From the NCBI GenBank assembly GCA_017552985.1, contig JAFZNO010000051.1, positions 1 to 57,427 of the forward strand: DNA of 57,427 nucleotides, in the 5' to 3' direction. This DNA is from Lachnospiraceae bacterium. Its GTDB lineage: Bacteria; Bacillota; Clostridia; Lachnospirales; Lachnospiraceae. Of this stretch, positions 27,374-45,086 are shown piece after piece. Within the stretch, counting starts at the first letter, position 1. Each line of letters starts with the position of its first letter. The translations under genes were made by a program, and so were the position numbers. Under the pieces are notes generated by a model that was not told where the DNA came from, did not search any database, and saw only the letters and a program-made list of their open reading frames with translations.

Positions 27374-27406
27374 AAAAGAACCGCAGCGGGTGCTACGGTT
27401 CTTTTT
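27374..27406 (-). terminator. Terminator closing the hybrid transport operon
   Basis: Stem of 14 bases with one mismatch (27374-27387 with 27392-27406 on the plus strand), ending in TTTT on the minus strand right after the solute-binding gene stop. It separates that operon from thiN. Confidence 0.88.
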
Positions 27407-27421
27407 GATGCTTTGAACTTT

Positions 27422-29950
27422 TTATCTGTTCTCGTTTACGTAAAGCTGTGCACGGTTCTGGATCATGTTTGCAGCATCCTTCGCCGACTTGGAGCCGGAA
27501 TAGAATGCCTGAACTTCCTCAGAGATGATCTTTGCAATGTTTTCATCTCTGTAGCTGGAATTCTTTACGCTACAAATGAAGTTAAACACTTCGTCTGCCT
27601 GTGCCTGCGTGAAGGGCTGAATCTTAAACTCCTCGTCGTTGATCCAGAAGGTATCGTCATAGTATACCTTTTCTCCATTCTCATCCGTCCAATAGGATCT
27701 TTCGGTCGTCTGGTTTACCTGCTCGCGAACCATCTTCTTCAGGATGGGGAATCCGCTTCTGTAACCATATTTGTTTTCTGCATTCGTCTGATACTCCTCA
27801 GACAGGAAGAACTTCAGGAATTCCCAAGCGCCATCCTGATTATTGGATTTTGCGGAAATGGCAAAGGTGGCATCTGCATCCACAAAGGAACCCGAACCGC
27901 TTTCCGTAGGGAATCCGATGAAGGAAACTTCTTCGCCCATCATGCCGTTTACGTTATACTTAATGTTGTAAACGTCGCTGAGATACAACTCCATCAACAG
28001 GGAACGATTCTCACGATACTGGGACTGGTAGTTCTCCCAATAATGCTCCCAATAATCATCATCGTTGTAGTTTTTTTCGCTCTCTTCATTCGTCGGAAGC
28101 GTCTTGGCATACTCTAACAGATCAATAAAGTTCTGGGAATCAAAGCTACACTTTCCGGAATTTACGTCTACGAAGTCATGTCCGCAGTAATCCATAATGT
28201 CGTCCATGAATGCTTCCCTAGTCATTCCAAGGCCAAAGATAGACTTATCTCCAACCAGCTTGTTTGCCACCTGCTTTACGTCAGCCATGGTCCAGCTTGT
28301 TCTGTCACCTACAAGGCTCTTCTTGCCGATCCAGGTTCTTACGTTAAAGCTGGGTACTACGCGATAAAGAACGCCGTTAACGCGGAATGCGTCGAAAACG
28401 TTGTCCATGTACTCTTGTTTGCTGAGCTCAGGATCTGCCTGGATCATCTTGTCAATGTCAGCAAGCAGGCCCTTGGAAACATAGCTTTCAACGGGCATGG
28501 AACCGTCAAGCTGAATGATGTCAGGAATATTACCTGCGATCAGGTCATTATTCAGCTTCGTATAGCCAGCCGTGTAATCATCTTCGCCATTGTACTTATC
28601 ATAATCAACAATGGTAATTCTGTAATCCGTACTCTTCTTGTTAAAGCGAATGATCTGGGCCTTCACGTCGGAGCTTACCCAGATTCCTGCAAATACAAGA
28701 ACCTTTTTGTCCTGAATGTCCTCGGGCTTTACATAGGTGAACAATGCCATGCAGGAATGATAATCAACGGGATCATAATAAGTTGCAACAAAATGCTCAT
28801 TGTCAATAAAGGACAGATTGTCAAGGCTGTAGGTTGCAAGGTCAGAGTTTACGTAGTCCATGATCTTGGTAACTTCAGTGTCTCCAAGATTAAAGGAGAA
28901 AACTCCCTCAGAATTAGCATAAATCACGTCCTTGTCACTGCTTGTGGTGAAATTATAGAATCCACTGTTTCTTGCCTCCTTGGGCACCTCATATTCCTGT
29001 CCAAAGGAAAGATTGGAAGGATCAAAGGTACGAAGGAACATCTTATTCCAGTCATCACTGTAGTAGGCAACCAACATCGTGCCATCGGATTTTTCAGCAA
29101 AAGTAGGATCCTTGCTGAAAACGTCCTTATCAGCAGAAACCTTCTTCAGGTCGGAAACGCCGCCTTCCTTATCTACCGTAATGATTCCGCTCTGATCTCC
29201 CGTCATGATGATGCCGAGCTGACCGGATTTCATGGAAATCATGCGGGAAATATAACTGTAGCTGTCTTCGTTCTGATACTTTGACATGTCAAACGGAACG
29301 CTAAAGATAACGCTTCCGTCCTTCTTGTCCCAACAATAAATGATATTCTCACTGACGGAATCATATGCTCCGTTTGAAAAAGACTCCTTCCAGTGATTAC
29401 ATAACGCATAAATGCCGTCACCGGAAAGGCATGCATTGGAAAAATAGTAATTCTCGTATGCGTAGTCACTCGGTTCGTAATCAAAATCCCCAAAATCAGG
29501 ATCCACGGCAATGGGATCCGGTCTTACGGGTTCACCCATGGGACCTACGCCTTCAAAAAGCTCCATGTCTCCGTCATCATCGGATCCGGTCGAGGTTGCT
29601 TTCGGGAGATCGATCTTAACGGTTTTTACGTTAGAACCGTCCGATTTCATGGTAACGAAGTTCATGGTCTGACTCTCACCTGAGGAATCCCAGCTATAGG
29701 ACATCGTCAAGAATTCCAGCGTATCACCGTCTCTTCTAAATGCCTGGATGCTGGTATCGTCACCACTAGTCACGTCCAGATCCTGATATCTGAACACGTA
29801 CTGCTTTGCCAGGGACGGATCTGCAGAAACCTTACTTCCCTTGCCGCCCTTGCCTCCTTCGCCATCTTCCTTGGTATTGCTGCAGGCTGCCATGCTTAGA
29901 GTCATGACTGCCGCCAATCCAATGGCCAAAACTCTCTTTAACTTATTCAT
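27422..29950 (-). CDS. Giant solute-binding lipoprotein 2: N-terminal propeller-like domain plus CUT1-type binding domain
   Basis: An 842-residue lipoprotein (lipobox around C23, MAAC) with a glycine/lysine linker (28-40). Residues about 50-405 are beta-rich with repeated strand-turn units and Asp/Gly turns (SSDKDVIYANSEGVFSF) and look like a beta-propeller. From about residue 415 (VLVFAGIWVSSDVKAQIIRF) the chain is an extracellular solute-binding protein family 1 domain with the usual end IQNRAQLYVNEN. A normal CUT1 binding protein is about 430 residues, so half of the protein is extra. It starts at the ATG 29950, which overlaps the stop of the MacB-type gene (ATGAATAA) behind AAGGAGG, so translation is coupled. 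Ligand unknown. Confidence 0.85.
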   Translation of the reverse strand: MNKLKRVLAIGLAAVMTLSMAACSNTKEDGEGGKGGKGSKVSADPSLAKQYVFRYQDLDVTSGDDTSIQAFRRDGDTLEFLTMSYSWDSSGESQTMNFVTMKSDGSNVKTVKIDLPKATSTGSDDDGDMELFEGVGPMGEPVRPDPIAVDPDFGDFDYEPSDYAYENYYFSNACLSGDGIYALCNHWKESFSNGAYDSVSENIIYCWDKKDGSVIFSVPFDMSKYQNEDSYSYISRMISMKSGQLGIIMTGDQSGIITVDKEGGVSDLKKVSADKDVFSKDPTFAEKSDGTMLVAYYSDDWNKMFLRTFDPSNLSFGQEYEVPKEARNSGFYNFTTSSDKDVIYANSEGVFSFNLGDTEVTKIMDYVNSDLATYSLDNLSFIDNEHFVATYYDPVDYHSCMALFTYVKPEDIQDKKVLVFAGIWVSSDVKAQIIRFNKKSTDYRITIVDYDKYNGEDDYTAGYTKLNNDLIAGNIPDIIQLDGSMPVESYVSKGLLADIDKMIQADPELSKQEYMDNVFDAFRVNGVLYRVVPSFNVRTWIGKKSLVGDRTSWTMADVKQVANKLVGDKSIFGLGMTREAFMDDIMDYCGHDFVDVNSGKCSFDSQNFIDLLEYAKTLPTNEESEKNYNDDDYWEHYWENYQSQYRENRSLLMELYLSDVYNIKYNVNGMMGEEVSFIGFPTESGSGSFVDADATFAISAKSNNQDGAWEFLKFFLSEEYQTNAENKYGYRSGFPILKKMVREQVNQTTERSYWTDENGEKVYYDDTFWINDEEFKIQPFTQAQADEVFNFICSVKNSSYRDENIAKIISEEVQAFYSGSKSAKDAANMIQNRAQLYVNENR

Positions 29951-31154
29951 GTTTCTCCTCCTTATCATCGAAAGTAATGCTGATCGGCGTTCTGTTTTCA
30001 GCTTTCCTTTTCTTTGATCTTGATTTCTTTTCTTTCGGTTCCTTGGGTGCAACTTCCTTCTTCACAGAGTTCCTTGCTTTTCTCTCCCCGGAGTTCCTTG
30101 TTTCCCTCTTTTGGGGTCTCAGCTTGCCAAATTCCATTCTGAGCATTTCCCAAACGGACTTTATCGTCCATTTCTTATGCTTCCACCGGTAGATCAGCCA
30201 GATTGCGGTGATCAGTGCGGGAACCGCAATACATATTATCACGATTGCGGTCAGGAATGCAAGTATGTCTTCCATTCCCCTCGCAAGGTTCTCCCAATAG
30301 GGATAAATGATTGCCTTTGCGTTCATGGAGCGATAGGCGAAGCCCTTAAAGTGCTTCAGACTGTTCACGTAAGAAAAGCGACCCGTGTTTTCAACGATTT
30401 CGGTCTCATTTTCGTCTGCCCCAATGTTTTCCTTTACGGTATCCATCGCAAAATTCTTGATCGGGTTCGGCATAACGATCTCATAATGGTTGATGGGTTC
30501 GGTCCCTCCCAATTTCTGGTAGGATTCATAGGATAGATAAAGAATGGGATTTGCAAGTCCTGCCTGCTTCTCCATCTCTTCCTGGGGCCTTTTGATCACG
30601 CCTGCAATGACGTGCTGTTTCCCGTTAACTTCGATCACTTTCCCGGGAACGTTGATGCCGCCAAATAACTGCCATGCAATCTCTTCGTCAATGACAACGT
30701 AATCCTGGTTGAGATCACTTTCGTAAAAATAATTGCCATACCTCAGCTTTTGTGGATGGAACCGGAAAAAATCCCCTCCAACGCCGATCACCTTCACGTT
30801 CATGCTGGTCGTATCCGTTGCGGCGAGCATGGACGTCTGTGCACTGTATGCGCTAGACCAAAGTCTTGCTCCGGGATTCTCGCTTTCCGACGTAATGGAT
30901 GCCTCTTGCAGCACTTCATCCAACTTATGTTCAAAAGCAACCAGTCTGTCACGCGTCATTCCCTCATCCCTGGAAAAGAAACAGCTTACCTGGGATACGG
31001 CGCCATCCTTACTCCACCGGAGCGCCATTTGCTGGCTTTCCTGCCGGCGGATCATGCCCGACCGGATCTGCGCAAGAATAAATGCCACAAGAAGGAGAAA
31101 CGCACATGCAAGCACTATTATGATTGTCTTTTTTGAAATTCTTGTTTTCCTCAC
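29943..31154 (-). CDS. Stand-alone MacB-type extracellular core domain protein with basic tail
   Basis: A 403-residue protein with one transmembrane helix at 8-30, an extracellular domain of about 240 residues that resembles the MacB periplasmic core (VKVIGVGGDFFRFHP, YFYESDLNQDYVVIDEE, LFGGINVPGKVIEVNG), a second helix near 295-320 and an 80-residue Lys/Arg-rich cytoplasmic tail. The three FtsX permease helices that normally follow the core domain are missing, so it is not a complete transporter. GTG at 31154 is the better start (GGAG eight bases away); a TTG at 31160 is too close to the Shine-Dalgarno. It lies 16 bases after the HlyD-type gene and its stop overlaps the start of the binding protein gene. 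Confidence 0.72.
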   Translation of the reverse strand: MRKTRISKKTIIIVLACAFLLLVAFILAQIRSGMIRRQESQQMALRWSKDGAVSQVSCFFSRDEGMTRDRLVAFEHKLDEVLQEASITSESENPGARLWSSAYSAQTSMLAATDTTSMNVKVIGVGGDFFRFHPQKLRYGNYFYESDLNQDYVVIDEEIAWQLFGGINVPGKVIEVNGKQHVIAGVIKRPQEEMEKQAGLANPILYLSYESYQKLGGTEPINHYEIVMPNPIKNFAMDTVKENIGADENETEIVENTGRFSYVNSLKHFKGFAYRSMNAKAIIYPYWENLARGMEDILAFLTAIVIICIAVPALITAIWLIYRWKHKKWTIKSVWEMLRMEFGKLRPQKRETRNSGERKARNSVKKEVAPKEPKEKKSRSKKRKAENRTPISITFDDKEEKHE

Positions 31155-31170
31155 TTGCAAAGCTCCTGCC

Positions 31171-32961
31171 TTAGTTTTCGGTTATTCTAACTTGACTGCC
31201 GGGTTCTACCGGCCCGGAAGCCGTCGTGATCACGTAATCCTGCCAGGTATTTAACGCGCCGCTAACGGCTGCCTGGTTGTCATCCTGCGCAAGGATCTGA
31301 ATGTCCACGCGTCTTGCTATGTAACGGTTTCCCAGAGGCGTGCTCTTCGATTCAACGATCAGTACGTAGTCACCGTTAATGTCTTGTCTGAGCGCACTCT
31401 TTGGAATAATGCAATCGTATTCCTGATTGCGCTGTCCAACGGAAATGTTTAAGCTCTGTCCAACCATGACGGAATCACCAGCAACGGAGAACGTCAAAAC
31501 CTTTGTCTTCGCCGGATCCTGCTTGTCAGGCTTAATGGTCTTTAAGGTGATGTCCATGTCACTGTAATACCATGAGTTGACAAGCGTCGCCTTATCCCCA
31601 ACGGATACCAGTTTTGCCTGCTCGATCGGAACCTTCATGGTAAAGAAGAATCCCATGCCTTCCGGCTGAAGCACCATGATTTCTTTCTCCTCGATCTTCT
31701 TTCCACTGGTAACGTTGATGGTCGTGATGGTACCTGCGATGTCTGCCTTGATCTCCGTGCCGCCGTTCTCGCCGGTGAGCTCTTCAATCTTCTTTTTTGC
31801 GTCCGCAACGCTCTGCTTTGCGGCGTTCAGTTCTTTCTTTGCAGTGTCAATGGCATCCTGCTTACCTTGAAGCTTCGCAATGTTGTCGTTCTTATCCATG
31901 AGTTCGTCAATCTGACTCTGGATCTGATCAATCTCCTTTTGAATGTCATTCACCTGATTTTCGTTAGCATGCTTCTGAATCGTGTAATCAGAGATAGCCT
32001 TTTCGATGTTATTGATCGTTGGACTTGCTTCTCTTGCTTCCTTTGCGGCAGTTGCTGCCTTCAGCTCATCCTCCGCTTTTTTTAGGTTCTCTTCTGCCTT
32101 GGTGAGAGCCGTCTTCTTTTCCTCTACGGTTTTATTTGCCGCTGCAAGGCGGGTTGCCAGGTCAGCCCTCTTCTCTTCAATGTCCGGATAGTTCTCCGGC
32201 GTAAGCAGGTAATCTGCCTCCAGTGCCTCGCTTTCCGTCTCTATTTCGGTCACTGCTCCTTCGGCTTTCGTCACTTCGCCGGCAGCATTTTCTTTGGCGG
32301 TTTCCGCGAGGGGAAGCGCCGTCTCGGCGATGGTCACCCTCGTGGCTGCATACTCATTTTGTTCCTGCTCGTAGGTCTTCTGTGCCGTACTGTCTTCGAT
32401 CGCCTTGTTGAGTTGGGCAACGGCATCACTATATGGCTTTTGTCTGTCCTTTGCAGCCTGCAGGGAATTGCGGAGATCATTGATCTGTGTACGGTAGGTC
32501 GCCAGATTCTTTATGTCCTGAGCGGAAATCTTATCCTTTAAGACTGTCTCGTCATAATCGCTCTGGGCATCCTTTAAGGCCTTCTGCGCAGTCTCAACGG
32601 AGGCTTCCGCCTGCTTTAACGTTGATTTTGCTTCTTCCAGTTCCGTTCCGTCTCCCTCAGCCAGGGTCAAAAGCACGTCGCCCTTCTGAACCTTATCGCC
32701 TTCACGGAAATTGATGCTGGCAACCTTTCTGCCAATATATTTAGACTCTGCTTCCACCACGTAGGGATCCCCGCTCTCAACGGTACCTGATCCACGGACT
32801 TTGGAAGTGATGGATCCGTTTTGCACAAATTTCGTCGCCACTTCCGGAAGGGAGTGATTCAGAATGGTCTGAGAAAAGAACGTCAATACCAGCAGGATCG
32901 ACAAAAATACGATCGCTGCCGTCTTTACCCATTCTCTTCTCTTACTGCGATTCTCGTTCAT
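31171..32961 (-). CDS. HlyD/MacA-type membrane fusion (adaptor) protein
   Basis: A 596-residue adaptor. One N-terminal transmembrane helix (13-31) is followed by the first biotinyl-lipoyl half (KVASINFREGDKVQKGDVLL), a very long Ala/Lys/Glu coiled coil (about 105-400), the second lipoyl half (IKADIAGTITTINVTSGKKI) and a beta-barrel region. In Gram-positives such proteins serve MacB-like exporters (YknX type). Here its neighbours are sugar-importer permeases and a MacB-type core domain protein rather than an export ATPase. AAAGGAG precedes the ATG. Confidence 0.88.
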   Translation of the reverse strand: MNENRSKRREWVKTAAIVFLSILLVLTFFSQTILNHSLPEVATKFVQNGSITSKVRGSGTVESGDPYVVEAESKYIGRKVASINFREGDKVQKGDVLLTLAEGDGTELEEAKSTLKQAEASVETAQKALKDAQSDYDETVLKDKISAQDIKNLATYRTQINDLRNSLQAAKDRQKPYSDAVAQLNKAIEDSTAQKTYEQEQNEYAATRVTIAETALPLAETAKENAAGEVTKAEGAVTEIETESEALEADYLLTPENYPDIEEKRADLATRLAAANKTVEEKKTALTKAEENLKKAEDELKAATAAKEAREASPTINNIEKAISDYTIQKHANENQVNDIQKEIDQIQSQIDELMDKNDNIAKLQGKQDAIDTAKKELNAAKQSVADAKKKIEELTGENGGTEIKADIAGTITTINVTSGKKIEEKEIMVLQPEGMGFFFTMKVPIEQAKLVSVGDKATLVNSWYYSDMDITLKTIKPDKQDPAKTKVLTFSVAGDSVMVGQSLNISVGQRNQEYDCIIPKSALRQDINGDYVLIVESKSTPLGNRYIARRVDIQILAQDDNQAAVSGALNTWQDYVITTASGPVEPGSQVRITEN

Positions 32962-33001
32962 TGTTCTTCTCCTTTATTTCAATCATGTTCACTTTTATAA
33001 A

Positions 33002-34021
33002 TTAACCCTTTACGCCGCCCTGATAAGTAATGCCGTCCACGAGATACTCTTCTCCGTAGAGGAACACAAGCAAGGTCGGTACCATGTAGATCGTGGCAAC
33101 GGCAAATGCCAAACCGACTTCACCGCTGTTGATCTTGCTAAGGAACACGGAAAGGGGATGTTTTTCTCCGTCAGCCAAAAGGATCAGGGGTTGTTCTACC
33201 ATGTTCCAATAATCGATAAACACGAGAATCGCCGCTGAGCAAATGGCGCCCTTGCAAAGAGGCAGGCAGATTCTCCTGTAGATCTGCCATTCGCCTGCGC
33301 CGTCAATCTGCGCGGCTTCGATCATGGATTCCGGAATTCTCTTCATAAACTTTGTCAGAAGGAACACGGCAAACGGCGAGAATATGCCGGGCAGCCAGAT
33401 TGCCCAATAGGTATCCAGGATCTTTAGCCAGCTGCTGACCAGGTAGTTCGGCACGAGCGTTACCTGATAAGGCATCAGCATCAGGATCACGTAGGAGAAA
33501 AAGATGATCGCACGTAATTTTCCCGTGTACCTTGCAAACCCATAGGACGCAAGCGTTGCCACGATGAGCTGGAACAAAACGATGGGTCCTACCAGGATCA
33601 CGGAATTCCAGAATTTCAACAAATATTCCGGGCTCTTAAAAAGGACCGTTGAATACTGGCTAAAGGACACCATGTCAGGAATAAATTTTAGGTTTACCTT
33701 TTCAGATATGTATACCTTACCTCCGTTGGAATTGGTGGCGAACACCGTACCATAGTTGGAGGCGATCTCCGATGAAGCCATAAAGGAATTGGATATGGTC
33801 AAAACAATCGGCATCAGGAACAGGATGGCAAAAAAAGCAGCTATGACCGTTGCGATGGAAATCTTGATGAACCGGAAAAGTTTTCTTGCCCTCGCCGCCC
33901 TCTTGTCCATCTTCCGGAGCACTTCCTGGCTATAGTTCTTCCGGGGCTTTTTCTTTTTGGGTTCCGTTCCCAGATATAGGATTTCTTCGGACAGGACGTC
34001 TTTCTTTCTAAAGTCTTCCAT
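33002..34021 (-). CDS. CUT1 ABC importer permease, MalG type, with charged N-terminal extension
   Basis: A 339-residue inner-membrane permease of the carbohydrate uptake type with six helices. The EAA loop that docks the ATPase is present (EAAQIDGAGEWQIYRRICLP). The first 50 residues are hydrophilic and rich in Lys and Arg, longer than in usual MalG proteins. It begins 3 bases after the MalF-type stop with GGAGGG upstream, so the two permeases are translated together. No ATPase is encoded in the operon, so a shared MsmK-type ATPase elsewhere is likely. Confidence 0.92.
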   Translation of the reverse strand: MEDFRKKDVLSEEILYLGTEPKKKKPRKNYSQEVLRKMDKRAARARKLFRFIKISIATVIAAFFAILFLMPIVLTISNSFMASSEIASNYGTVFATNSNGGKVYISEKVNLKFIPDMVSFSQYSTVLFKSPEYLLKFWNSVILVGPIVLFQLIVATLASYGFARYTGKLRAIIFFSYVILMLMPYQVTLVPNYLVSSWLKILDTYWAIWLPGIFSPFAVFLLTKFMKRIPESMIEAAQIDGAGEWQIYRRICLPLCKGAICSAAILVFIDYWNMVEQPLILLADGEKHPLSVFLSKINSGEVGLAFAVATIYMVPTLLVFLYGEEYLVDGITYQGGVKG

Positions 34022-34024
34022 GTG

Positions 34025-34972
34025 TTAGCCCTCCACGTCCTTTCCGAAGCGCTCTTCCACGATGAACAGAAGGCCTATGATCAGGACCATGACGATCGAC
34101 ATCATGATCGCACCGGCAGAAAGCGCCTGATAGTCCAGCTTCTTAAATTTGTTGTTCATGTAATGCTGTAGCATGTACAAGGTCGGATATGGATAATCCG
34201 TCGTCAAAAGGTAGATCTCCCGGAAGATCTTAAATGAACTGATCAGGGACATGATCGTTACAAACAATACCGTAGACGAAAGATATCTGGTCTTCACGTA
34301 GAAAAACGTCTGTATCGGATTTGCGCTCTCGAGCCTTGCAACCTCAAGAATGTCCTTGGGAATGCTGGCCAGCGCGGCCATAAACAGGATCATGTTGTAA
34401 CCCAGGTTTTTCCACAGGAACAGGATCACGATGACGATGATCGCCTGATCAGACTTAAACCAGTCGATCCTGTCCACTCCGAATTTCATTACCACGTCAT
34501 TGACTGCACCGTTGTTATGGAATAACACCTGCCAGATTAGAACGATGGAAGCCACGGGGACCATCATGGGACTTAAGAAAAAGGTTCTGAACTGGCTTCT
34601 GAAGGGAATGTTGAGATCCAACACCATGGCAAGAATAAGACTTAAAACCACGGCTAAGGGCACGGCGATGGCTGAAAACGTGGCCGTATTCTTAACCGCA
34701 GTCATAAACGCTTCATTCTTTGCGACGTTTTTAAAATTCTCAAATCCCACGTAGTTTGCACTAATGGGATTGTCTAAAACCGAATAATAAATGATAACGC
34801 AAAAGGGAATTAGGAAAAAGGCCATCACTCCCAGAAAACTGGGAGCGATGAATAAACCTGACTTAAACTTCAGCTTGCGGAAACGCTTACTGTTTCTCTT
34901 GGGAGGTTTTACCTTTTTAACTGTTTCCTCGGAATTCGTATTTGCTTTTGATAACTTTACTTTCTTGTTCAA
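34025..34972 (-). CDS. CUT1 ABC importer permease, MalF type, with basic N-terminal tail
   Basis: A 315-residue permease with six helices and an EAA-like loop (EVARLESANPIQTFFYVKTR), in which the conserved EAA-G signature is weakened (ESAN instead of DGAN/DGAS). Residues 1-38 are a very basic tail (KKVKLSKANTN, KPPKRNSKRFRKLKFK). The start is TTG at 34970-34972 with GAGGAG six bases before. It follows the first binding protein gene by 16 bases. Confidence 0.9.
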   Translation of the reverse strand: MNKKVKLSKANTNSEETVKKVKPPKRNSKRFRKLKFKSGLFIAPSFLGVMAFFLIPFCVIIYYSVLDNPISANYVGFENFKNVAKNEAFMTAVKNTATFSAIAVPLAVVLSLILAMVLDLNIPFRSQFRTFFLSPMMVPVASIVLIWQVLFHNNGAVNDVVMKFGVDRIDWFKSDQAIIVIVILFLWKNLGYNMILFMAALASIPKDILEVARLESANPIQTFFYVKTRYLSSTVLFVTIMSLISSFKIFREIYLLTTDYPYPTLYMLQHYMNNKFKKLDYQALSAGAIMMSIVMVLIIGLLFIVEERFGKDVEG

Positions 34973-34988
34973 AACGACTCCTCGAATC

Positions 34989-37376
34989 TTAATTATTTTC
35001 TTTCAGGTACAGGTTAGCGCGGTTCTGGATCACGTTTGCAACGTCGTCAAGGCTCTTAGCGCCGTCAAAGTATGCTTGCGCCTCTTCATTGATGATCTTG
35101 TTCAACTCTTCGTCCATGCTCACGTCGATCACGGTAGCACCGGCAAGAAGCTTCTCAACGATTGCACAATCTTCTTCCGTAACGGGTTTGTAGACGTAAC
35201 TCCACTCTTCACCGTTTTCGCCTACCATGGTGTAACCGCCGCCTACGCCTTCGTATATCGGATTGCCTTTGTCGTCCGTGATGACTTCTCCATTTTCATC
35301 CGTCATGGGCTTTACGTCAAGGGCCTTTGCCTTCTGCTTTTCATATCTGGATTTCATGGTTGAAAAACCATATCCGTAATATCTGTTGTCATCCGTCTCC
35401 GAATCAATGACGTCTTCCAGGAATGCCCAAGCGGCATCCTTGTGCTGGGACTGGGCATTGATGCCATACTGTTCGTTCGGCATCATGATGCATCCGTTGC
35501 TGCCCTTTGAATTAGGGTATCCGATGAAAGTCACCTGATCACCGCTAAAATATGCCAAGGTACTCTGGATTTCTTCAAAGCCGTAGATGTTGGCATCAGC
35601 CAAAAGCAAGCGATTGTCCTTCAAAAGCAGAGGCGGTAACTGATATCCATTACTGTAATCATACTCCTTCGGGAACTTATTTGCAAACTTTAACACGTTC
35701 TTAAACTGCTCGCTGTCAAAATGACATTCGTTCTTTTCTGCGTCAATAAAGGCTTCCTTGTCAAGCATCAGCATCAGCTGTATGATCAGGTCTTTTGTTG
35801 CGCCCTGCAAAAGTTCTGCCTTCGGATATGCCTCCTGAAGCTTCATCATGTCTTCCAGCGTCCATCCCATCTTATCGCCCACAAGTGAAGTCTTTGCGGC
35901 AAGAGTGCTGAGCGTAAACGTGGAAGGCAGGTAAACAAGCGATCCATTGATGGTTGCAACGTCAAGAATTCTCTCAAAGAAATCATTTTTATTCAGTCGG
36001 GTGCTCTTCTCAAGATAGGGCATCAAGTCTTCCAGCACGCCCTTCTTTGCCAGATTGTTTACGTCCAGGCTGGACAGATCCAAAATGTCAGGACCGTTAC
36101 CGGAGAGAAGGTCATTGGTAAGATTTGCAATTGCGTCTTGATAAGACTTTTCGCTCCAGTCATTTTCATCCATGTAAGTCTTTACGGTGATGCGATACTT
36201 GTCATTGTTCTTGTTAAACTCGATGATCTTCGTGTTCAGGCTGCTGTCCTGATAGATCGTGCCGACTTTTATGGTCTCTCTCTTGATGACGTCCTCGGTC
36301 TTCATTTTCGAAAGTTCCACGAGACTCGTCTCATTTGCGTTCCAATCACGCGTGATGGCATAAATCTTACCGTCAGCGGAAGGAATTACCGCGCTTACCT
36401 GATCTCCGTTGACGTCGCAATCCAGCCAGGCCAAAAGCTTTTGCGCCTCTTCCTTTTCCATGGAATACTCGTATACGCCGGTACCGTCATAGCAGAGAAT
36501 GTCACTTTCAATGCCTTTGGTAAAGGAGGAAGAACCATTGCCAGAGGGATAATTTGCATAGGATTTTCCAAGCTTTTTCCCGTCATAGTCCAGCTCTGCA
36601 AAAGTAGTGGTTGCTCCCTCATTGCCATACTGCACGTAGGAAACGTAGCATTTCTTATCCTTGCCAATTCCCATGGAATGTACGTAGCCATTCTGGCTTA
36701 CGGTGATCTCACCGGACTTGTTTCCGTTCTCGTCAAAGGTCCAAATGCCTTCGCCGCCTACGATCGCAAAAACCCTGCCCTTCTCGTCAGCAACGATCTG
36801 ATTCGTATAGAAATATTCTCTGCCCTTGGTTTCATTCGTAAAATCAACGTCATAAACCTGATTTCCCTGAGCATCAATCTTTATCAAATGATACTTGGAA
36901 TTCTGATCCATGCTCTCATAATAAGCATTCCACTGCGCTTCCGTCGCGTCCTCTCCCGGTGCATCGGGCGAGATCCTTGATACGTAATACAAATTCCCGG
37001 CCTCATCCACGCAGAAGTTTAATACGTAACCGTTGTTACCGAACTCAATGATTTTCTCAGGATTCTCAAATTTGCCGTTATTGAGCTGATATTTCACGAC
37101 GGAGCTGGCGTCCGAGTTCGTTTCCGCATTGAAATCATATTTCATGGCATATACGTATCCGCCGCTAATTACCATGTTCTCAAGATTTCCCATGTCCTCG
37201 CTCAGACTAGAGAACTTTGCCACGTAGGTGAATTCAGGAACGATTTCTTCAACTGCGGCCTTCCCTGACTTTGAGTCAACGTCACCGCCGTCCGTTCCCA
37301 TTGAAGTACAAGCTGCAAGTCCCAAGGAAAGAGCTAAAGCCATTCCCGTTATGAACCATTTCTTTTTATAAAACAC
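34989..37376 (-). CDS. Giant solute-binding lipoprotein 1: N-terminal propeller-like domain plus CUT1-type binding domain
   Basis: A 795-residue lipoprotein (lipobox LAAC, C23). Residues about 45-362 hold repeated Asp-Gly turn units typical of beta-propeller blades (VDEAGNLYYV at 123, ADEKGRVFAI at 197, SADGKIYAI at 333). From residue 368 (IKVGTIYQDSSLNTKIIEFN) a family 1 solute-binding domain follows, ending in VIQNRANLYLKEN, almost the same end as the second binding protein, so the two are paralogues. The start is a GTG at 37374-37376 with an ideal AAGGAGG. A promoter and a structured leader lie upstream (37430-37510). It is the first gene of the six-gene operon. Confidence 0.87.
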   Translation of the reverse strand: MFYKKKWFITGMALALSLGLAACTSMGTDGGDVDSKSGKAAVEEIVPEFTYVAKFSSLSEDMGNLENMVISGGYVYAMKYDFNAETNSDASSVVKYQLNNGKFENPEKIIEFGNNGYVLNFCVDEAGNLYYVSRISPDAPGEDATEAQWNAYYESMDQNSKYHLIKIDAQGNQVYDVDFTNETKGREYFYTNQIVADEKGRVFAIVGGEGIWTFDENGNKSGEITVSQNGYVHSMGIGKDKKCYVSYVQYGNEGATTTFAELDYDGKKLGKSYANYPSGNGSSSFTKGIESDILCYDGTGVYEYSMEKEEAQKLLAWLDCDVNGDQVSAVIPSADGKIYAITRDWNANETSLVELSKMKTEDVIKRETIKVGTIYQDSSLNTKIIEFNKNNDKYRITVKTYMDENDWSEKSYQDAIANLTNDLLSGNGPDILDLSSLDVNNLAKKGVLEDLMPYLEKSTRLNKNDFFERILDVATINGSLVYLPSTFTLSTLAAKTSLVGDKMGWTLEDMMKLQEAYPKAELLQGATKDLIIQLMLMLDKEAFIDAEKNECHFDSEQFKNVLKFANKFPKEYDYSNGYQLPPLLLKDNRLLLADANIYGFEEIQSTLAYFSGDQVTFIGYPNSKGSNGCIMMPNEQYGINAQSQHKDAAWAFLEDVIDSETDDNRYYGYGFSTMKSRYEKQKAKALDVKPMTDENGEVITDDKGNPIYEGVGGGYTMVGENGEEWSYVYKPVTEEDCAIVEKLLAGATVIDVSMDEELNKIINEEAQAYFDGAKSLDDVANVIQNRANLYLKENN

Positions 37377-37434
37377 GATTTCCTCCTTTTGTGCTTTCCG
37401 TCTCTTTAAGCACGATTGAATTCTGAAAACTAGT

Positions 37435-37479
37435 AACGCGAAAGGAAACTCATTTTTTTAACAAAGCTCCTTTCGCGTT
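37435..37479 (-). promoter_or_regulatory. 12-bp inverted repeat at the 5' end of the hybrid operon transcript
   Basis: AACGCGAAAGGA (37435-37446) is repeated inverted at 37468-37479 without mismatch, with 21 bases between. The predicted transcription start falls at the edge of the first arm, so it can be a 5' hairpin or an operator. The loop contains an ATG of a seven-codon frame (37430-37453) after an AAAGGAG; a second hairpin (GTGCTT/AAGCAC) lies just before the gene's own Shine-Dalgarno. Confidence 0.6.
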
Positions 37480-37481
37480 TA

Positions 37482-37510
37482 ATTATGGCAAATAGCCCAT
37501 GGTTTGTCAA
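37482..37510 (-). promoter_or_regulatory. Sigma-A promoter of the hybrid transport operon
   Basis: Minus strand TTGACA (37505-37510), spacer of 17, CATAAT (37482-37487). Transcription would start about 100 bases before the GTG of the first binding protein. Confidence 0.85.
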
Positions 37511-37648: not shown

Positions 37649-40600
37649 TTAATCCACACTTTTTAGGCTTTCCGTCATGCTGATTTTTTCAAGCCTTCCG
37701 TTCATCATCAGACTGACCAGAAGAGAAAACAAAATGGTCAACAACACAGCATAGACGTAGCTCACCGGAAAGATGCGGACGCCGAAGGAAACCATGTCCA
37801 CGGTGATCTCATGAATGACAAAGGAATGAAGCCACACGCCCATGCCAAGTCCCACAAAAGCGCCTAAAACGGTCAATACGATGTTTTCACGGAATACGTA
37901 GAGTGCCGTTTCCGAAGGGAAGAATCCAAGAACCTTGATCGTTGCGATCTCCCTGATCCGCTCAGTCACGTTAATGTTGGTCAGATTATATAAAACGATA
38001 AATGCAAGTCCCGCGGCGCAGGAAGTGACCAGGATCACGATCAGGTTCATGCTTTCCATCATGGTACGGAAACGCTTTACCATGTCCCTGGTTACGGAAA
38101 CTGATACCACGCCGTCAAGCTTCATGACCCGGGGCGCAACTTCACTGACGTCTCTGCCCGGAGCCACCTTTAGGTATAAGGATTTCGGCTGATAGCTTTC
38201 CCCGAAACCTTCCCAAGTCGTTTGGTCCAAAAAGACAAAATTAAATATGTGATTTCTGGCAATTCCTGAGACTTTAACGCGGTATTCCTTTTGATCGGAA
38301 TTCCTAAGAACAATCTCATCTCCTGCTTTTATTCCAAGGATTTCCGCGATCTTGTCCGTAACAACGGCTTCTCCGGTTTCTGGCTTGTCAATCTTCTTTC
38401 CATTCCGGGTCTCCATGTGAAGGAACTGGCTTAAGCCTTCATCCGTAAGCTCTTCCGGAAAGGTGAGGACGGTAACGTTCTTTTGCCCCTTCTCCGACAC
38501 AAGATCAAGCGTTCCCTCCTGATAAATGATCCATTCTCCAAGCCCTTTGCTTTTTAAGTTCTTTAGTTTATTTAGAAATTCTTCAGAAATCTCTTTTTGC
38601 AACGTAACGCTGAGATCCATCAGTTGAATTTCGGAATACTGCACGTCGGCCACGCCCGCGATGGAATCCTTTAATCCAAAGCCTGTCAGCAAAAGTGCCG
38701 TACACCCGCCTATTCCAAGGATCATCATGAAAAATCTCTTTTTGTAACGGACGACGTTGCGGACGGCAACCTTTCTCAAGAAGCTAAGCCGCTTCCAAAT
38801 AAACGGCACGTACTCAAGAAATACGCGTTTCCCGGCCTTTGGCGCCCTGGGACGCATCAAAGTGCTTGCATTACCGGAAAGCTCTTTCCTGCAGGACAGC
38901 CAGGTTGTTCCCACGCTGCATAATAAAGATACGATAAGCGAGATTCCCGCCAGAACCGGATCAAACTCATAAACGATGTCCCCTGCTGAGTACATGATCC
39001 CATATACCTTCCATATGGTAAAGGGAAATACGTGAGTACCCGCAACGTAACCAAAGACTGCGCCGCTTAGTGCCGCAGAACCGGAATAGAACAGGTACTT
39101 AAACATAATGTTTCCGTCAGAATATCCAAGTGCCTTCAAAACGCCGATCTCCGTTCTCTGTTCCTCTACCATGCGGTTCATGGTGGTCACGCAGATCAGT
39201 GCGGCCACCAGAAAGAAAAAGACGGGAAAGACGTTAGCGATGCCATCAACAATGGCGGAATCACTCTCAAAACATACGTAACCAATGTTTGTATTTCTTC
39301 CAAGTAGATATCCTTCCGGCTCTTCCCCGTTCTCCAAGCGTTTCTTTAGCTTTCCGATCTCTTCTTCCGCGTCAGCGATCTTTACCTCAAACTCCTCCAG
39401 CGCGCTTTCATACTTTATAAAGCCGTTAAGGTATTCCAGTTTGCCTTCCTCGAACTTACGCTTTCCGTCAGAGTATTCTACTTCCTTTTCGCCTAGTGTC
39501 TTTTCGACTTCTTCGATCTGCGATTCCGCTTCCTTCAGCTTTTTTCTGCCTTCCTTGAGGTCAGACTCTCCCTGCTCAATCTTTTTCTGGCTGTCGATCA
39601 GATCCTTCTTGCCTTGTATAATGGCATTTTTGCCATCCTGGAGTGCCTTCGCTCCCTCCTCATATTTCTTTAGATTTTCCTCATATTCCTTTCTGCCGCT
39701 GGCAAGCTGTGAACCTAACGCCAGATTCTCCTGATATCTTTTTGAAAGATCGGCAAGCTTTTTGTCCAGCTCTGCGCGCTCCTTGGCAATGCTTTCCCGC
39801 TCCTTGCGAAAATCTTCCGCATAAGTTGCTTCCAGTCCAAACGTTTTTGCCCAAGCTTCCCTTGTCGCGATGGATCTTTCCCTCTCGTCCAGGCTCTCCT
39901 TTGACGCATTAATCTCCTTCTGTTCGCTGACCAGACCTTCCAACGTCAGACGATACTGCATTTCTCCGAGCTTTAGCGTCATCTCCGCGGCGTCAAGCTG
40001 CGTTTTCCCCGCAGACAGCTCCGCTTCCTTTTCCGCGATCAGCTTTTCATTCTCTTCGATCTTTTGCTTTCCCTCTTCAAGGAGTTTTTTCCCTTTTTCG
40101 AGCTCCGGCTCTTTTTCTTCAAGCGTTTTCTTGCCTTCCTCAAGGTCTATCTTTGCCTGCTCAAGATCCTTCCAGCCTTGATTCAATTCCCTTCTGCCGT
40201 CCGCCAACTCTTTTTCCCCGTCGGCGATCTCTTTTCTGGCAGATTCCAGTTCTTTTCTGGCATCTTCCAGTTCCATCCAGGCTTCATCCCGCTTTTGTGC
40301 GAGCTTATCCTCTGCCGTCTGGATCAAGTCCGGGAGTTCCTCTAGCCGAAGTGCCCCGGCCTGTTTTACGTATTCCTTCCACTCGGCTTCCTTCTCGTCG
40401 AGCCAAGCCTTATATTCCTCTGAATAAATGGTGAAATCCGGCTGAAACTTTACGTAGATTTCCGTAAATGCCTCAGAAGCAAAGCTTTCCTTAGGAAGAT
40501 AAAAGAATGCGTCAATGCTGCCGGTGCCTAGAGAGGTATTTCCGCGTTCGAACTGAATGTACAGGGGGGATTTTACGATTCCAACGACTTGAAATTCCTT

Positions 40601-41092
40601 TGTCTTAAAGTTTTCCAGATCACTTTCGGAATTATCTTCACCGAGGAAAATTTTCTTCCCAATGATGCCTTTTCCACAGTTGTAAGCGTCTGCAAGGCAT
40701 TCATTTTCGTTTTCAGGCATGCGCCCTCCGGTCAGGATGATCTTATTCACGTCCGCGGTAATACCGTGAAACCGTCCGACCTTTTGGCTGCCGTTTTCCT
40801 GGGAATAATACGCATCAAAAGAAAACGTTCCCTCCGCTGCCGCTACTTCCGGCAATTCTGAAAAGAACCTTTCCTGTGTTTCGGAAAAACCAAGTTCCCC
40901 TAAGATCCTGTAATCATAAAAGGCGGTTTCCCGATAATATTTTGTTGTGGACCCAATGAAATCTTTTTGGGTGATCTTTAATCCGGCAAATAACCCAACG
41001 CCTAATGCCACGATGGCAAAAATGGCAAGGAACCTTCCAAGGCTTCCCTTGATTTCCCGGAGCAAAGACCTCCATATCATGGAATGCTTCAT
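37649..41092 (-). CDS. FtsX-like ABC permease with long extracellular coiled coil
   Basis: A 1147-residue permease with the pattern helix, large extracellular domain, three helices, linker, helix, extracellular domain, three helices. The first extracellular domain contains a coiled coil of roughly residues 222-590, built from repeated GKK-LEEG/ELxxG elements (KKTLEEKEPELEKGKKLLEE) that should extend far into the wall or beyond. FtsX-type helices begin near 620 (NVFPVFFFLVAALICVTTMN) with the permease signature EQRTEIGVLKALGYS, repeated near the C terminus (ERIREIATIKVLGF). The ATG at 41092 was chosen; a TTG at 41125 would overlap the ATPase gene. It pairs with the ATPase 13 bases upstream. 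Large coiled-coil permeases like this are common in Firmicutes, with unknown cargo. Confidence 0.92.
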   Translation of the reverse strand: MKHSMIWRSLLREIKGSLGRFLAIFAIVALGVGLFAGLKITQKDFIGSTTKYYRETAFYDYRILGELGFSETQERFFSELPEVAAAEGTFSFDAYYSQENGSQKVGRFHGITADVNKIILTGGRMPENENECLADAYNCGKGIIGKKIFLGEDNSESDLENFKTKEFQVVGIVKSPLYIQFERGNTSLGTGSIDAFFYLPKESFASEAFTEIYVKFQPDFTIYSEEYKAWLDEKEAEWKEYVKQAGALRLEELPDLIQTAEDKLAQKRDEAWMELEDARKELESARKEIADGEKELADGRRELNQGWKDLEQAKIDLEEGKKTLEEKEPELEKGKKLLEEGKQKIEENEKLIAEKEAELSAGKTQLDAAEMTLKLGEMQYRLTLEGLVSEQKEINASKESLDERERSIATREAWAKTFGLEATYAEDFRKERESIAKERAELDKKLADLSKRYQENLALGSQLASGRKEYEENLKKYEEGAKALQDGKNAIIQGKKDLIDSQKKIEQGESDLKEGRKKLKEAESQIEEVEKTLGEKEVEYSDGKRKFEEGKLEYLNGFIKYESALEEFEVKIADAEEEIGKLKKRLENGEEPEGYLLGRNTNIGYVCFESDSAIVDGIANVFPVFFFLVAALICVTTMNRMVEEQRTEIGVLKALGYSDGNIMFKYLFYSGSAALSGAVFGYVAGTHVFPFTIWKVYGIMYSAGDIVYEFDPVLAGISLIVSLLCSVGTTWLSCRKELSGNASTLMRPRAPKAGKRVFLEYVPFIWKRLSFLRKVAVRNVVRYKKRFFMMILGIGGCTALLLTGFGLKDSIAGVADVQYSEIQLMDLSVTLQKEISEEFLNKLKNLKSKGLGEWIIYQEGTLDLVSEKGQKNVTVLTFPEELTDEGLSQFLHMETRNGKKIDKPETGEAVVTDKIAEILGIKAGDEIVLRNSDQKEYRVKVSGIARNHIFNFVFLDQTTWEGFGESYQPKSLYLKVAPGRDVSEVAPRVMKLDGVVSVSVTRDMVKRFRTMMESMNLIVILVTSCAAGLAFIVLYNLTNINVTERIREIATIKVLGFFPSETALYVFRENIVLTVLGAFVGLGMGVWLHSFVIHEITVDMVSFGVRIFPVSYVYAVLLTILFSLLVSLMMNGRLEKISMTESLKSVD

Positions 41093-41105
41093 GACTTTTG
41101 CCCCA

Positions 41106-41810
41106 CTACCATTCAATGTCTGCAACGTTTAAGGGCGACGCGTTGATTCTTTCGTCAATGACCGTACCGCTCTTCACCGTGATCACGCGGTCTGCCATGG
41201 CACACAGCGCGGAATTATGCGTGATGACGATCACGGTTTTTCCTTTCTGCCTGCAAGTATCCTGTAAGATTTTTAAGATATTTTTTCCCGTCTGGTAATC
41301 CAAGGCTCCCGTAGGCTCATCGCACAAGAGAAGCTTCGGGTTCTTTGCCAGTGCTCTCGCTATGGCAACGCGCTGTTGCTCGCCTCCGGAAAGCTGCGCA
41401 GGGAAATTTGCCCGGCGTTCTGAAAGTCCAACTTCGCGTAAAACGGCGGCAGCATCCAAGGGATTCTTGCAGATTTGGGCCGCAAGCTCCACGTTTTCCA
41501 GCGCCGTCAGGTTTTGGACCAAATTATAGAACTGAAATACAAAACCCACGTCATAACGTCTGTATTCCGTGAGTTTCCGTTTGTCATATTTTGATATGTC
41601 CTGTCCTTCCAAGAGGACTTTTCCCTCCGTCAGGGTATCCATGCCGCCGAGAATGTTCAAGATCGTCGTCTTTCCTGCACCGGAAGCGCCCACGATCACG
41701 CAGAATTCTCCCTCTCCCACGGTAAAGCTCACGTCCTTCAGCGCCTCTATCTCAACTTCACCCGTATGATAGACCTTCCTAACGTTTTCAAACCTTATAA
41801 AATCCTTCAT
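41106..41810 (-). CDS. MacB/LolD-type ABC transporter ATPase
   Basis: A 234-residue ATPase with Walker [11 protein letters not shown]-loop VFQFYNL, signature LSGGEQQR, Walker [13 protein letters not shown] and the H-loop ITHNSAL. The sequence belongs to the LolD/MacB/FtsE group that drives FtsX-type permeases by mechanotransmission instead of moving substrates through the membrane. Its stop is 13 bases before the FtsX permease start. It might also energise the MacB-type domain protein of the next operon, but that protein lacks the permease helices that would dock it. Confidence 0.94.
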
Positions 41811-41846: not shown

Positions 41847-41912
41847 ATTAAAGTATTATAGCAAATTCCATTTGAAATGGAAAATGAAATTTTTGTGAAG
41901 TTAGGAGCCATC

Positions 41913-44900: not shown

Positions 44901-45086
44901 TTCCGGAACCTTAAGGAAACGCTTTCTAAGAAAACATACTTAACCATTTTGATCACCTACGGCGTTTTGGTCTTCGGGCTCTTCTGTCTCTTCTATCCCG
45001 TGCTTGCCGGACAGCCCGTAGAATTAGAATTTGCCCAAAAATATCTCAAGTGGTTCAAAACTTGGATTCTTGTCGCCGGAAAATAA
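41913..45086 (+). CDS. Fusion of two GT-C membrane glycosyltransferases (GT87-like plus PMT/GT39-like)
   Basis: A 1057-residue protein with about twenty membrane helices. The first half (about 1-470) has an N-terminal GT-C acidic loop with DVDVNCFSAWSDRM and YFSDYPPLYLY and further NAYNFW and RMHERYLYP motifs, like DUF2029/GT87 mannosyltransferases. After a linker with a beta domain (about 490-630), the second half starts with FDEIYHARTAYEF and NTHPPLGK, the catalytic loop of protein O-mannosyltransferases (GT39), and ends in a PMT C-terminal helix bundle. Both halves would use polyprenyl-phosphate sugars outside the cell. ATG at 41913 has AGGAG; the ATG at 41877 has no ribosome-binding site. 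The acceptor is unknown. Confidence 0.87.
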   Translation: MNNLPLWIVISLIFSIVIWSLTLRDLQGKKYVIGDLTVPLFFLFALVLRVVVASSYSGFDVDVNCFSAWSDRMATMGPAHFYAEDYFSDYPPLYLYFLYVIGMLKKILGLLSLSPLHLVLLKSPAIISDVLIGFLIYKVGLKRVGLGSALLLSALYLFQPVVILNSCLWGQVDSVFTLFLIVCCLFLEKLRLLPAMIVFGLGVLLKPQMLIFTPVLILGFIHYVYRGSFSFRMFSRAIAYGALTLVMTILIAMPFGLGNVFSRYFDTLGSYPHASVNAYNFWAGVGLNWYPQTTKFMGIPCQTWGYVAIVLAASLSLVLGIRLRTLTQKYFITGAFLILTVFTFSVRMHERYLYPIIPLMIFGYMGFASRQICYVPAGKAEKGKKESSQVYALTPTLRFLFPAVFTMICVLHYVNVAHVLYYYDAKNYDASAPILKITGILMTVAALCFYYLMIRLQSSKEMPALPQEKSFRESVSPIWILESEMRMTKLDVILVIVITLIYSCFALRDLGEAAAPQSLYETAKGVSMTFEFPKEVTSVSYYEAPWHEQRYAFQCQTNDEEQPVVAQLLTFDTVFCWKTLDLPAATTKVIMTPQSNDARLLELVFLDSEGNPVSPVNASEYPALFDEADLYPETFSFRNSTYFDEIYHARTAYEFLHGWYSYENTHPPLGKILISVGITIFGMNPFGWRIIGTLFGIAMLPILYLFAKRLTGNTPAAALTCWIFAFDFMHFTQTRIATIDVYIVFFILCMYYFLFNYLSSDFTATPLKKLLLALGFCGLSMGLGVASKWTGVYAGIGMGILFFLHLGRVIHKSSGATTFREFKPFKTKYFQTDVGKKILKIIGCCIIFFVVIPVIVYVLSYIPFRDSWGNGLIQRTIKNQETMFSYHSKLEATHYFASPFYEWPFIVRPIWYYSGKLSDTLREGISSFGNPLVWWAGLPALIYVTYLFIRKKDRRALFLIIGYLSQYLPWVLVTRLTFIYHYFPSVVFLVLMIGYSFRNLKETLSKKTYLTILITYGVLVFGLFCLFYPVLAGQPVELEFAQKYLKWFKTWILVAGK

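Follow-up and report, generated by a model that had tools for sequence, protein, structure and literature searches.

Importers of the CUT1 class, of which MalFGK2 and the MsmX-served systems YesOPQ and YtcPQ-YteP of Bacillus subtilis are the closest described examples, share with the locus studied here a lipoprotein solute-binding protein (SBP), two BPD_transp_1 permeases with EAA loops, and an ATPase encoded elsewhere (available part of PMC7658222). The locus is a row of six genes on the minus strand (27422-37376) of the window, by which we mean the whole 57,427-nucleotide stretch of Lachnospiraceae DNA that was analyzed (contig JAFZNO010000051.1). Compared with CUT1 importers, this row adds an adaptor, a MacB core domain, a derived EAA loop in its MalF-type permease (PermF), receptors of ~800 aa that carry a propeller-like half, and orphan receptors encoded away from it. 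From sequence comparisons, we suggest that the operon may encode a single machine of the cell envelope, namely a variant of the CUT1/MalFG-like (type I) ABC importers with an adaptor seated on a reduced MacB base and served by a shared ATPase; the probability of this reading is, in our estimate, about one in two.

HlyD/MacA-family adaptors are known as components of export systems, and YknWXYZ is one Gram-positive system in which an HlyD-type adaptor is combined with a MacB-type core domain. Another is the MacAB-like pump Spr0693-Spr0694-Spr0695 of Streptococcus pneumoniae, which has an HlyD-type adaptor and a MacB-type extracellular core domain in common with our row, and which documents, for a Gram-positive bacterium, an adaptor hexamer seated on a transporter of MacB type (available part of PMC5768738). 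According to the same text, the hairpin barrel of the Spr0693 hexamer measures 56 Å in height, the assembly reaches its apex ~154 Å above the membrane, and the MacB-type subunit possesses four transmembrane (TM) helices and an ATPase of its own, whereas the corresponding protein of our row and its closest relatives (tier 1) mostly has two such helices and no ATPase. The Mce1 fatty-acid importer of Mycobacterium smegmatis (available part of PMC9882608) is an analogue in its way of working only: it is an ABC importer, one part of which is elongated enough to cross the envelope. An MCE system was ruled out for our row, as none of its six proteins matches an MCE family in Pfam at E values up to 1. 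In the SusC/SusD type of glycan uptake, surface lipoprotein receptors cooperate with a translocating core, SusC being a TonB-dependent outer-membrane porin, and many receptor types are found per genome. This, too, is a functional analogue only, since the row contains no SusC-type part and the arrangement of one core with many receptors is, for our system, something that we infer. Neither a combination of importer permeases with an export adaptor and a MacB core domain, nor orphan SBPs sharing one permease, was found described in the titles and abstract openings of the papers listed from the open-licence literature.

Organization and conservation of the six-gene row

In the direction of transcription, the row comprises BP1, a giant lipoprotein receptor of 795 aa (34989-37376, GTG start); the MalF-type permease PermF of 315 aa with six hydrophobic segments (34025-34972, TTG start); the MalG-type permease PermG of 339 aa (33002-34021); an HlyD/MacA-type adaptor of 596 aa (31171-32961); a MacB-derived periplasmic core domain protein of 405 aa (29943-31160, TTG start); and BP2, a second giant lipoprotein receptor of 842 aa with BP1-like architecture (27422-29950). 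The start of BP2 was taken to be the ATG at 29950, the longer TTG-initiated open reading frame to 30052 being a mechanical call only. Successive genes are separated by 16, 3, 40 and 10 bases, and the MacB-type gene and BP2 overlap by 8 bases; the six minus-strand genes with gaps of at most 40 bases that had been noted in a previous sequence-only reading were thus all recovered. Pfam assigns SBP_bac_8 to two of the proteins, BPD_transp_1 to two, Biotin_lipoyl_2/HlyD_3 to one and MacB_PCD to one, and an ATPase family to none of the six, in line with the earlier description of a row devoid of an ATPase.

A search of 200 genomes from the host's family with the MacB-type protein (P0005) gave matches in 60 at E ≤ 1e-3. 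The 20 strongest of the 59 matching genomes other than the source genome were read in detail, while the remaining 39 gave short partial matches, some of which were later placed in a second tier of relatives. In all 20, the adaptor gene is the upstream neighbor of the MacB-type gene, and both permease genes lie further upstream in 18, the two exceptions (L042, L047) being loci at which the contig ends. These 20 loci were joined by the best 80 of at least 501 contig stretches found with an alignment (A1) of 21 MacB-type proteins, and by 22 loci that wider searches contributed. Genes were named with profiles that had themselves been derived from loci of this family, and for some loci with a tier-2 profile in addition. 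Among the resulting 122 loci, all found through the MacB-type gene, the adaptor gene lies directly upstream of that gene in every case, and the order PermF-PermG-adaptor-MacB is complete in 112, with median gaps of −4, 29.5 and 13 bases. Eight of the ten incomplete loci stop at contig ends, one (L070) has a broken adaptor frame in an otherwise intact row, and one (L137) has no PermF. An SBP gene is found upstream of PermF in 78 of the 122 loci and downstream of the MacB-type gene in 99. Redundancy in this set is low: two loci (L040 and L098) are one record, and the 121 distinct proteins group at 90% identity into 117 clusters, of which 108 have the full row.

The hosts are mainly Lachnospiraceae, together with four other GTDB families; long members outside the Lachnospiraceae were found in two genomes of a single family from another class (f34) and in three families that share the class of the Lachnospiraceae (f177, f179, f213). 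Within the best 80 of the at least 501 stretches, the MacB-type protein has its closest named relative in an Acetatifactor metagenome-assembled genome (MAG) (L060, 86% identity), and we accordingly regard the host as an Acetatifactor-like lachnospiraceous bacterium. Two records among these 80 (L068 and L099) bear the titles Muribaculum and Candidatus Gastranaerophilales and are likely mislabelled or contaminated MAGs. No match to the MacB-type gene was present in 72,556 plasmid records.

The repeated co-occurrence of adaptor and core-domain genes with these permeases across genera, which the sequence-only reading had named as the support to be looked for, is thus borne out, and the recurrence of the row rules out a chance or strain-specific clustering. 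Median pairwise identities are 0.72 for PermG, 0.66 for PermF, 0.42 for the adaptor and 0.40 for the MacB-type protein, so that the pore is better conserved than the outer parts. Between the four core proteins, pairwise distances correlate at 0.89-0.93, which serves as a consistency check only, because genes that share one operon could yield such values with or without functional coupling. That the six genes constitute one inherited unit is well supported by these comparisons.

The permeases appear to belong to the row as well. A search with PermG in the 200 family genomes returned 21 at 393 bits or more, the next best reaching 234 bits, and 20 of these 21 also possess the long MacB match, in one case (G135) on a different contig. 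In the remaining genome (G147), a contig border lies directly behind PermG (L249). A MacB end without PermG was seen in G100, where the contig starts inside the adaptor gene. It thus looks as if this permease subfamily is dedicated to the row.

The permeases and the supply of ATPase

PermF (P0002) and PermG (P0003) match BPD_transp_1 with 53.3 and 51.5 bits (cut-off 26.4). Their best NCBIfam models, UgpA, GlcT and MalF for PermF and GlcU, UgpE and MalG for PermG, all score under the equivalog cut-offs. Measured against what we take to be the canonical EAA loop, PermG conforms, its D-G pair and its P each being retained in 114 of 114 sequences. PermF carries a derived form (E-V-A-x-L-E-S-A...F-x-x-I-K-x-R-Y-L), in which D is replaced by E in 90 of 110 sequences, G by S in 77 and P by R in 95, with F kept in all 110 and K in 108. 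The weakened EAA loop that had been noted for the MalF-type permease is therefore real, yet the altered form is itself conserved among the relatives, which rules out decay. Basic cytoplasmic tails had also been pointed out. They are present in the permeases, but their excess is modest: the N-terminal tail of PermF has a median charge of +10 among 112 members of the family, as compared with +7 for 70 CUT1-like open reading frames outside it, and the tail of PermG one of +8 among 116 members, as compared with +5 for 29 such frames.

The absence of an ATPase from the row is normal for this class of importer because shared MsmX-type ATPases are established in Firmicutes (available part of PMC7658222). 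The source genome (3.86 Mb in 137 contigs) contains four OB_MalK matches, and three of these proteins score above the NCBIfam cut-off for the UgpC subfamily. One UgpC-family ATPase, on contig 21, has no matching permease within the 13.9-kb stretch read around it. A UgpC-family (MalK/MsmX-type) ATPase encoded elsewhere would thus be a ready explanation for the ATPase-less operon.

The adaptor and the MacB-type protein

The adaptor is built from one N-terminal TM segment, a split lipoyl domain, a helical hairpin region, a β-barrel and a membrane-proximal end. It reaches 24.6 bits for HlyD_3 (cut-off 22.2) and 38.2 bits for Biotin_lipoyl_2 (cut-off 29.8) in Pfam, and 67 bits for the NCBIfam model TIGR01730 RND_mfp, below its cut-off of 94.9. 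The hairpin region between the lipoyl halves spans residues 104-403, i.e., ~300 residues, and prolines peak near its middle, as expected for a hairpin tip. If it formed one straight hairpin with arms of ~150 residues at 1.5 Å per residue, simple arithmetic would give a reach of ~220 Å, as compared with the 56 Å barrel of Spr0693 in the text cited above; prolines 176, 217 and 314 may break such a straight hairpin.

The MacB-type protein has the layout TM1, MacB_PCD, TM2 and basic tail. Its MacB_PCD match scores 48.7 bits (cut-off 27), it matches solved MacB by profile at E 6.7e-12, and its best NCBIfam models, ADOP and MacB, are both sub-threshold. In Pfam, P0005 matches neither PF02687, the four-TM domain of FtsX and MacB, nor an ATPase family, and a MacAB pump was ruled out on these grounds. 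The window protein possesses two hydrophobic segments, as do 103 of 121 relatives; 17 others have three and one has one. Directly before TM2 lies the family motif YPYWENxARxxED, of which P287, E290 and N291 are invariant in 21 sequences; the invariant residues of the same set also include F132, H135, G142, F166, G167 and G173. The gene is single-copy in the source genome, a second match to P0005 reaching only E 0.13. Profile A1 finds, in addition, an ordinary-looking MacB-type gene in that genome (contig 122, 1.5e-9), and separate MacAB-like neighbors exist there as an adaptor-MacB pair with a 261-aa gene alongside (L178).

Giant receptors and their orphan copies

Both giant receptors carry SBP_bac_8 (43.1 and 71.4 bits, cut-off 27), and BP1 has a signal peptide with the lipobox LAAC. 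The lipobox cysteine, Cys23 in each receptor, is invariant in 49 aligned BP1-type and 85 aligned BP2-type proteins. Searches with PDB profiles place CbpC closest to the C-terminal half (E 1.3e-39), followed by YesO and an arabino-oligosaccharide-binding protein. In the N-terminal half, 54 positions match PQQ-type propellers at E 7e-8. Among 49 members of the receptor family, Pfam detects, at E ≤ 0.05, Reg_prop in five, SGL in four, SBBP in four and PQQ_2 in one, and neither BP1 nor BP2 of the window reaches a propeller family of Pfam by itself. The extra domains previously noticed on both binding proteins are thus present, and the N-terminal half resembles a β-propeller by profile.

Giant SBPs occur in all 18 cassette-bearing genomes and in none of 11 genomes with neither tier (raw counts in which kinship is ignored); three of 11 tier-2 genomes carry one each. 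Matches to BP2 (P0006) at E ≤ 1e-15 number from 1 to 23 per tier-1 genome (23 in G029, 14 in G087, 12 in G022 and 8 in G000), and from 1 to 20 when confined to open frames of at least 700 aa, row receptors included (20, 9, 10 and 5 in the same genomes). Hence, many of the genomes searched combine one core with several receptors. In the 28 stretches read around orphan receptors, several of which end at contig borders, there was no adaptor or MacB match, and the sole permease match was a weak one of 19 bits (L284).

Response regulators and ECF sigma factors, with four each, head the neighbor families of the orphan SBPs (116 of 144 proteins scanned), followed by kinases, radical SAM proteins and BlaR1; BlaI was found once. 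Particular orphan SBPs (L176, L173, L174 and L269) adjoin a GHKL kinase, ECF sigma factors or a BlaI-BlaR1 pair, and each of these receptors may have its own regulator.

Distant, rearranged and reduced relatives

Beyond the 21 strong matches, 39 weaker PermG matches in the 200 family genomes define the second tier, of which 19 loci were read. A long HlyD-type gene (417-762 aa) stands behind PermG in 15 of these, and is followed by a MacB-type gene in 14 of the 15. In a scan of ten tier-2 MacB proteins, MacB_PCD was matched by eight, in four cases above the curated cut-off, and the FtsX domain by none; 12 of the 14 have three or four hydrophobic segments, where the tier-1 proteins mostly have two. 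The tier-1 and tier-2 profiles align with an hhalign probability of 99.3 over 136 columns. It is as if the transport helices had been lost and the core domain retained between the two tiers.

Five of 398 genomes of the phylum match the tier-2 profile at 1e-12: the source genome of the window, two more of tier 1, a genome whose MacAB-like row has a 227-aa gene between adaptor and MacB (L295), and one from another family of the class (L294). At the latter locus, the order is kinase pair, SBP, SBP, HlyD, MacB, PermF, PermG. No other single observation speaks as strongly for joint function as this linkage across a rearrangement, but it comes from one locus only.

Four of the 19 tier-2 loci read have instead a gene for 206-253 aa behind PermG and no MacB match (L255, L258, L265, L268; the contig of L265 ends there). 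Small adaptor relatives of 218-253 aa thus stand behind CUT1 permeases at L255:9185-9841, L258:8860-9621 and L265:8888-9607, and all three match the adaptor profile; the L265 protein has no Pfam match. In the alignment, these three proteins keep the TM segment, the first strand and the membrane-proximal end, and the lipoyl pair and the hairpin are gone. The common denominator would therefore be an adaptor base at the membrane, with the hairpin as an extension.

Proposed mode of action and alternative explanations

In the machine that we propose, PermF and PermG would form the pore, which a UgpC/MsmX-type ATPase from elsewhere would drive chiefly via the canonical EAA loop of PermG. The MacA-like adaptor, which probably forms a hexamer like that of the Spr0693-0695 pump, would stand on the pore from outside and be anchored there by the reduced MacB subunit, which has kept its core domain and would have lost its ATPase and transport helices. 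The giant lipoproteins, each with a propeller-like and a solute-binding domain, would capture the ligand, and the two row receptors and the orphan copies elsewhere would all feed this single core. It is likely that the six proteins form one physical machine; both its oligomeric state and the sharing of one core by several receptors are what we infer. Import is the direction that we favor, given that binding proteins, a pore and an EAA loop typify importers and that the row possesses no export motor. That the long hairpin serves as a conduit or scaffold through the wall is a guess, and so is the glycan nature of the ligand. Only tentatively do we take the further step to a wall-crossing importer, in which an adaptor tube of adjustable length on a MacB ring would stand over a MalFG-type pore and be served by interchangeable propeller receptors from across the genome; such an importer of monoderm gut bacteria would be a Gram-positive counterpart of SusCD in logic.

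Several observations weigh against the proposed importer or parts of it. The hairpin region varies widely in length (median 266 residues, range 156-490 in 100 sequences), and the hairpin-less adaptors of L255, L258 and L265 weaken a strict wall-spanning interpretation. Since the EAA loop of PermF is altered in most relatives, its coupling may differ from that in MalFGK2, and the row of L137 does without PermF altogether. Among 21 relatives searched, the MacB-type gene was found in 12 of 13 from the same genus, whereas the eight that represent other families of the order all lacked it. In 35 of 141 loci, an ABC ATPase gene occurs no more than seven genes away from the row, with neither position nor strand being constant, and ABC ATPases make up nine of the 130 flanking proteins scanned (the tier-1 share, from 34 cassettes, of 257 selected proteins, the other 127 being tier-2); some relatives may thus have a local ATPase. 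Finally, no glycoside hydrolase appears among the 25 families listed of 164 beside tier-1 cassettes, where ThuA (two proteins) is the sole sugar-related family listed, nor among the 25 listed of 152 beside orphan SBPs. A sugar-utilization context was rejected on this basis. Of the sugar-importer module previously proposed, the CUT1-type permeases and SBP domains stand, and the assignment to sugar is weak.

The lack of recurrent sugar genes, together with kinase pairs in the second tier, keeps in play a sensing complex, in which receptors, pore and adaptor would signal to regulators instead of feeding the cell, much as the transporter of BceAB-BceRS acts as a sensor. A response-regulator/histidine-kinase pair (OmpR-type in the one pair checked with Pfam) lies near the row in all 15 tier-2 loci with a long adaptor and in none of the four others, and signalling genes stand within three genes of the orphan receptor in eight of 28 stretches. 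Regulators next to a transporter may, however, just control it, and the flanks of tier-1 rows gave only 13 matches to the signalling probes among 652 genes; the higher proportions at orphan (15 of 144) and tier-2 loci (31 of 146) are biased, as the probes were partly drawn from these loci, so that the signalling genes beside orphan receptors are only a hint. EAA loops and solute-binding domains are retained as well. We consider sensing rather unlikely, yet a serious alternative to import.

Quite improbable, in our view, is an exporter or efflux/immunity device, in which the adaptor and the MacB core domain would work outward with the CUT1-type pair in place of the MacB motor. By homology these two are export parts, the tier-2 MacB proteins mostly have three to four hydrophobic segments, and stress-type regulators occur at some orphan loci. 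However, the possession of two solute-binding lipoproteins and of a MalG-type EAA loop is characteristic of import, the window row has neither an FtsX domain nor an ATPase, and MacAB-like neighbors exist separately (L178 and L295, whose 261-aa and 227-aa genes may or may not encode ATPases). The least probable alternative, two independent machines on one transcript, i.e., an ordinary importer and an adaptor/MacB pair serving something else, may draw on the facts that physical contact between the parts is presumed, that unrelated genes also recur nearby (cation efflux at 35 loci, YgjP-like at 34, PHP-domain at 22) and that ABC ATPase genes are close in 35 of the 141 loci, but it is opposed by the unbroken adaptor-MacB linkage in five GTDB families, its persistence in rearranged order in a further one (L294), the apparently dedicated permease subfamily, and the lack of a fixed place or strand for those ATPase genes.

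Regulatory signals and neighboring genes

The promoter previously claimed upstream of the row (37482-37510, minus strand) reads TTGACA-17-CATAAT with an extended TG, agrees with 11 of 12 consensus bases and is the best-scoring of 19 predicted sites in a 12-kb scan; shuffled sequences contain comparable numbers of such sites (15.0 ± 4.2), so that their total is not in excess of chance. At the other end, the claimed terminator (27374-27406, minus strand) is a hairpin with a T-rich 3' arm and a strong fold (−20.7 kcal/mol, z −8.8), and was missed by a consensus scan because the T-rich stretch belongs to the stem. Two further minus-strand hairpins were seen. One, early in the PermF coding sequence (34822-34851), has 13 pairs followed by five Ts (z −7.0), and its stem is identical in L060-L063; it could be an attenuator between BP1 and the membrane genes or a by-product of conserved APSFLGV codons. 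The other (37425-37481; −21.2 kcal/mol, z −4.5) lies at the start of the predicted transcript and is present in L060, with none seen in L061-L063.

Just upstream of the row, on the minus strand, lie a gene for a 1158-aa permease of the FtsX type, which contains a long insert resembling a coiled coil (37649-41125), and, overlapping it by 20 bases, an ABC ATPase gene (41106-41810). The latter is assigned to the FtsX-type gene, and with none in the six genes a private ATPase for the row was rejected. A plus-strand gene for 1069 aa with a protein-O-mannosyltransferase-like C-terminal part (41877-45086) starts 66 bases beyond this ATPase gene on the opposite strand. A cluster of large genes, to which the neighbor in L060 belongs, is close to the cassette in 15 loci. 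Elsewhere in the window, Pfam identifies ordinary genes for a PreP-like M16C peptidase (12995-15916, minus), an ABC-F-type ATPase (9019-10950, plus) and a CheA-type kinase (51092-53224, minus).

Biological significance

If the adaptor and the MacB core domain are indeed tied to importer permeases, parts of tripartite pumps can serve an importer or a sensor. Two questions become testable in this way, namely how large ligands pass through a thick wall to the membrane and what purpose the orphan giant SBPs have. The gut Lachnospiraceae would gain a core machine with many receptors, which sequence families now split into "sugar transporter" and "efflux" pieces.

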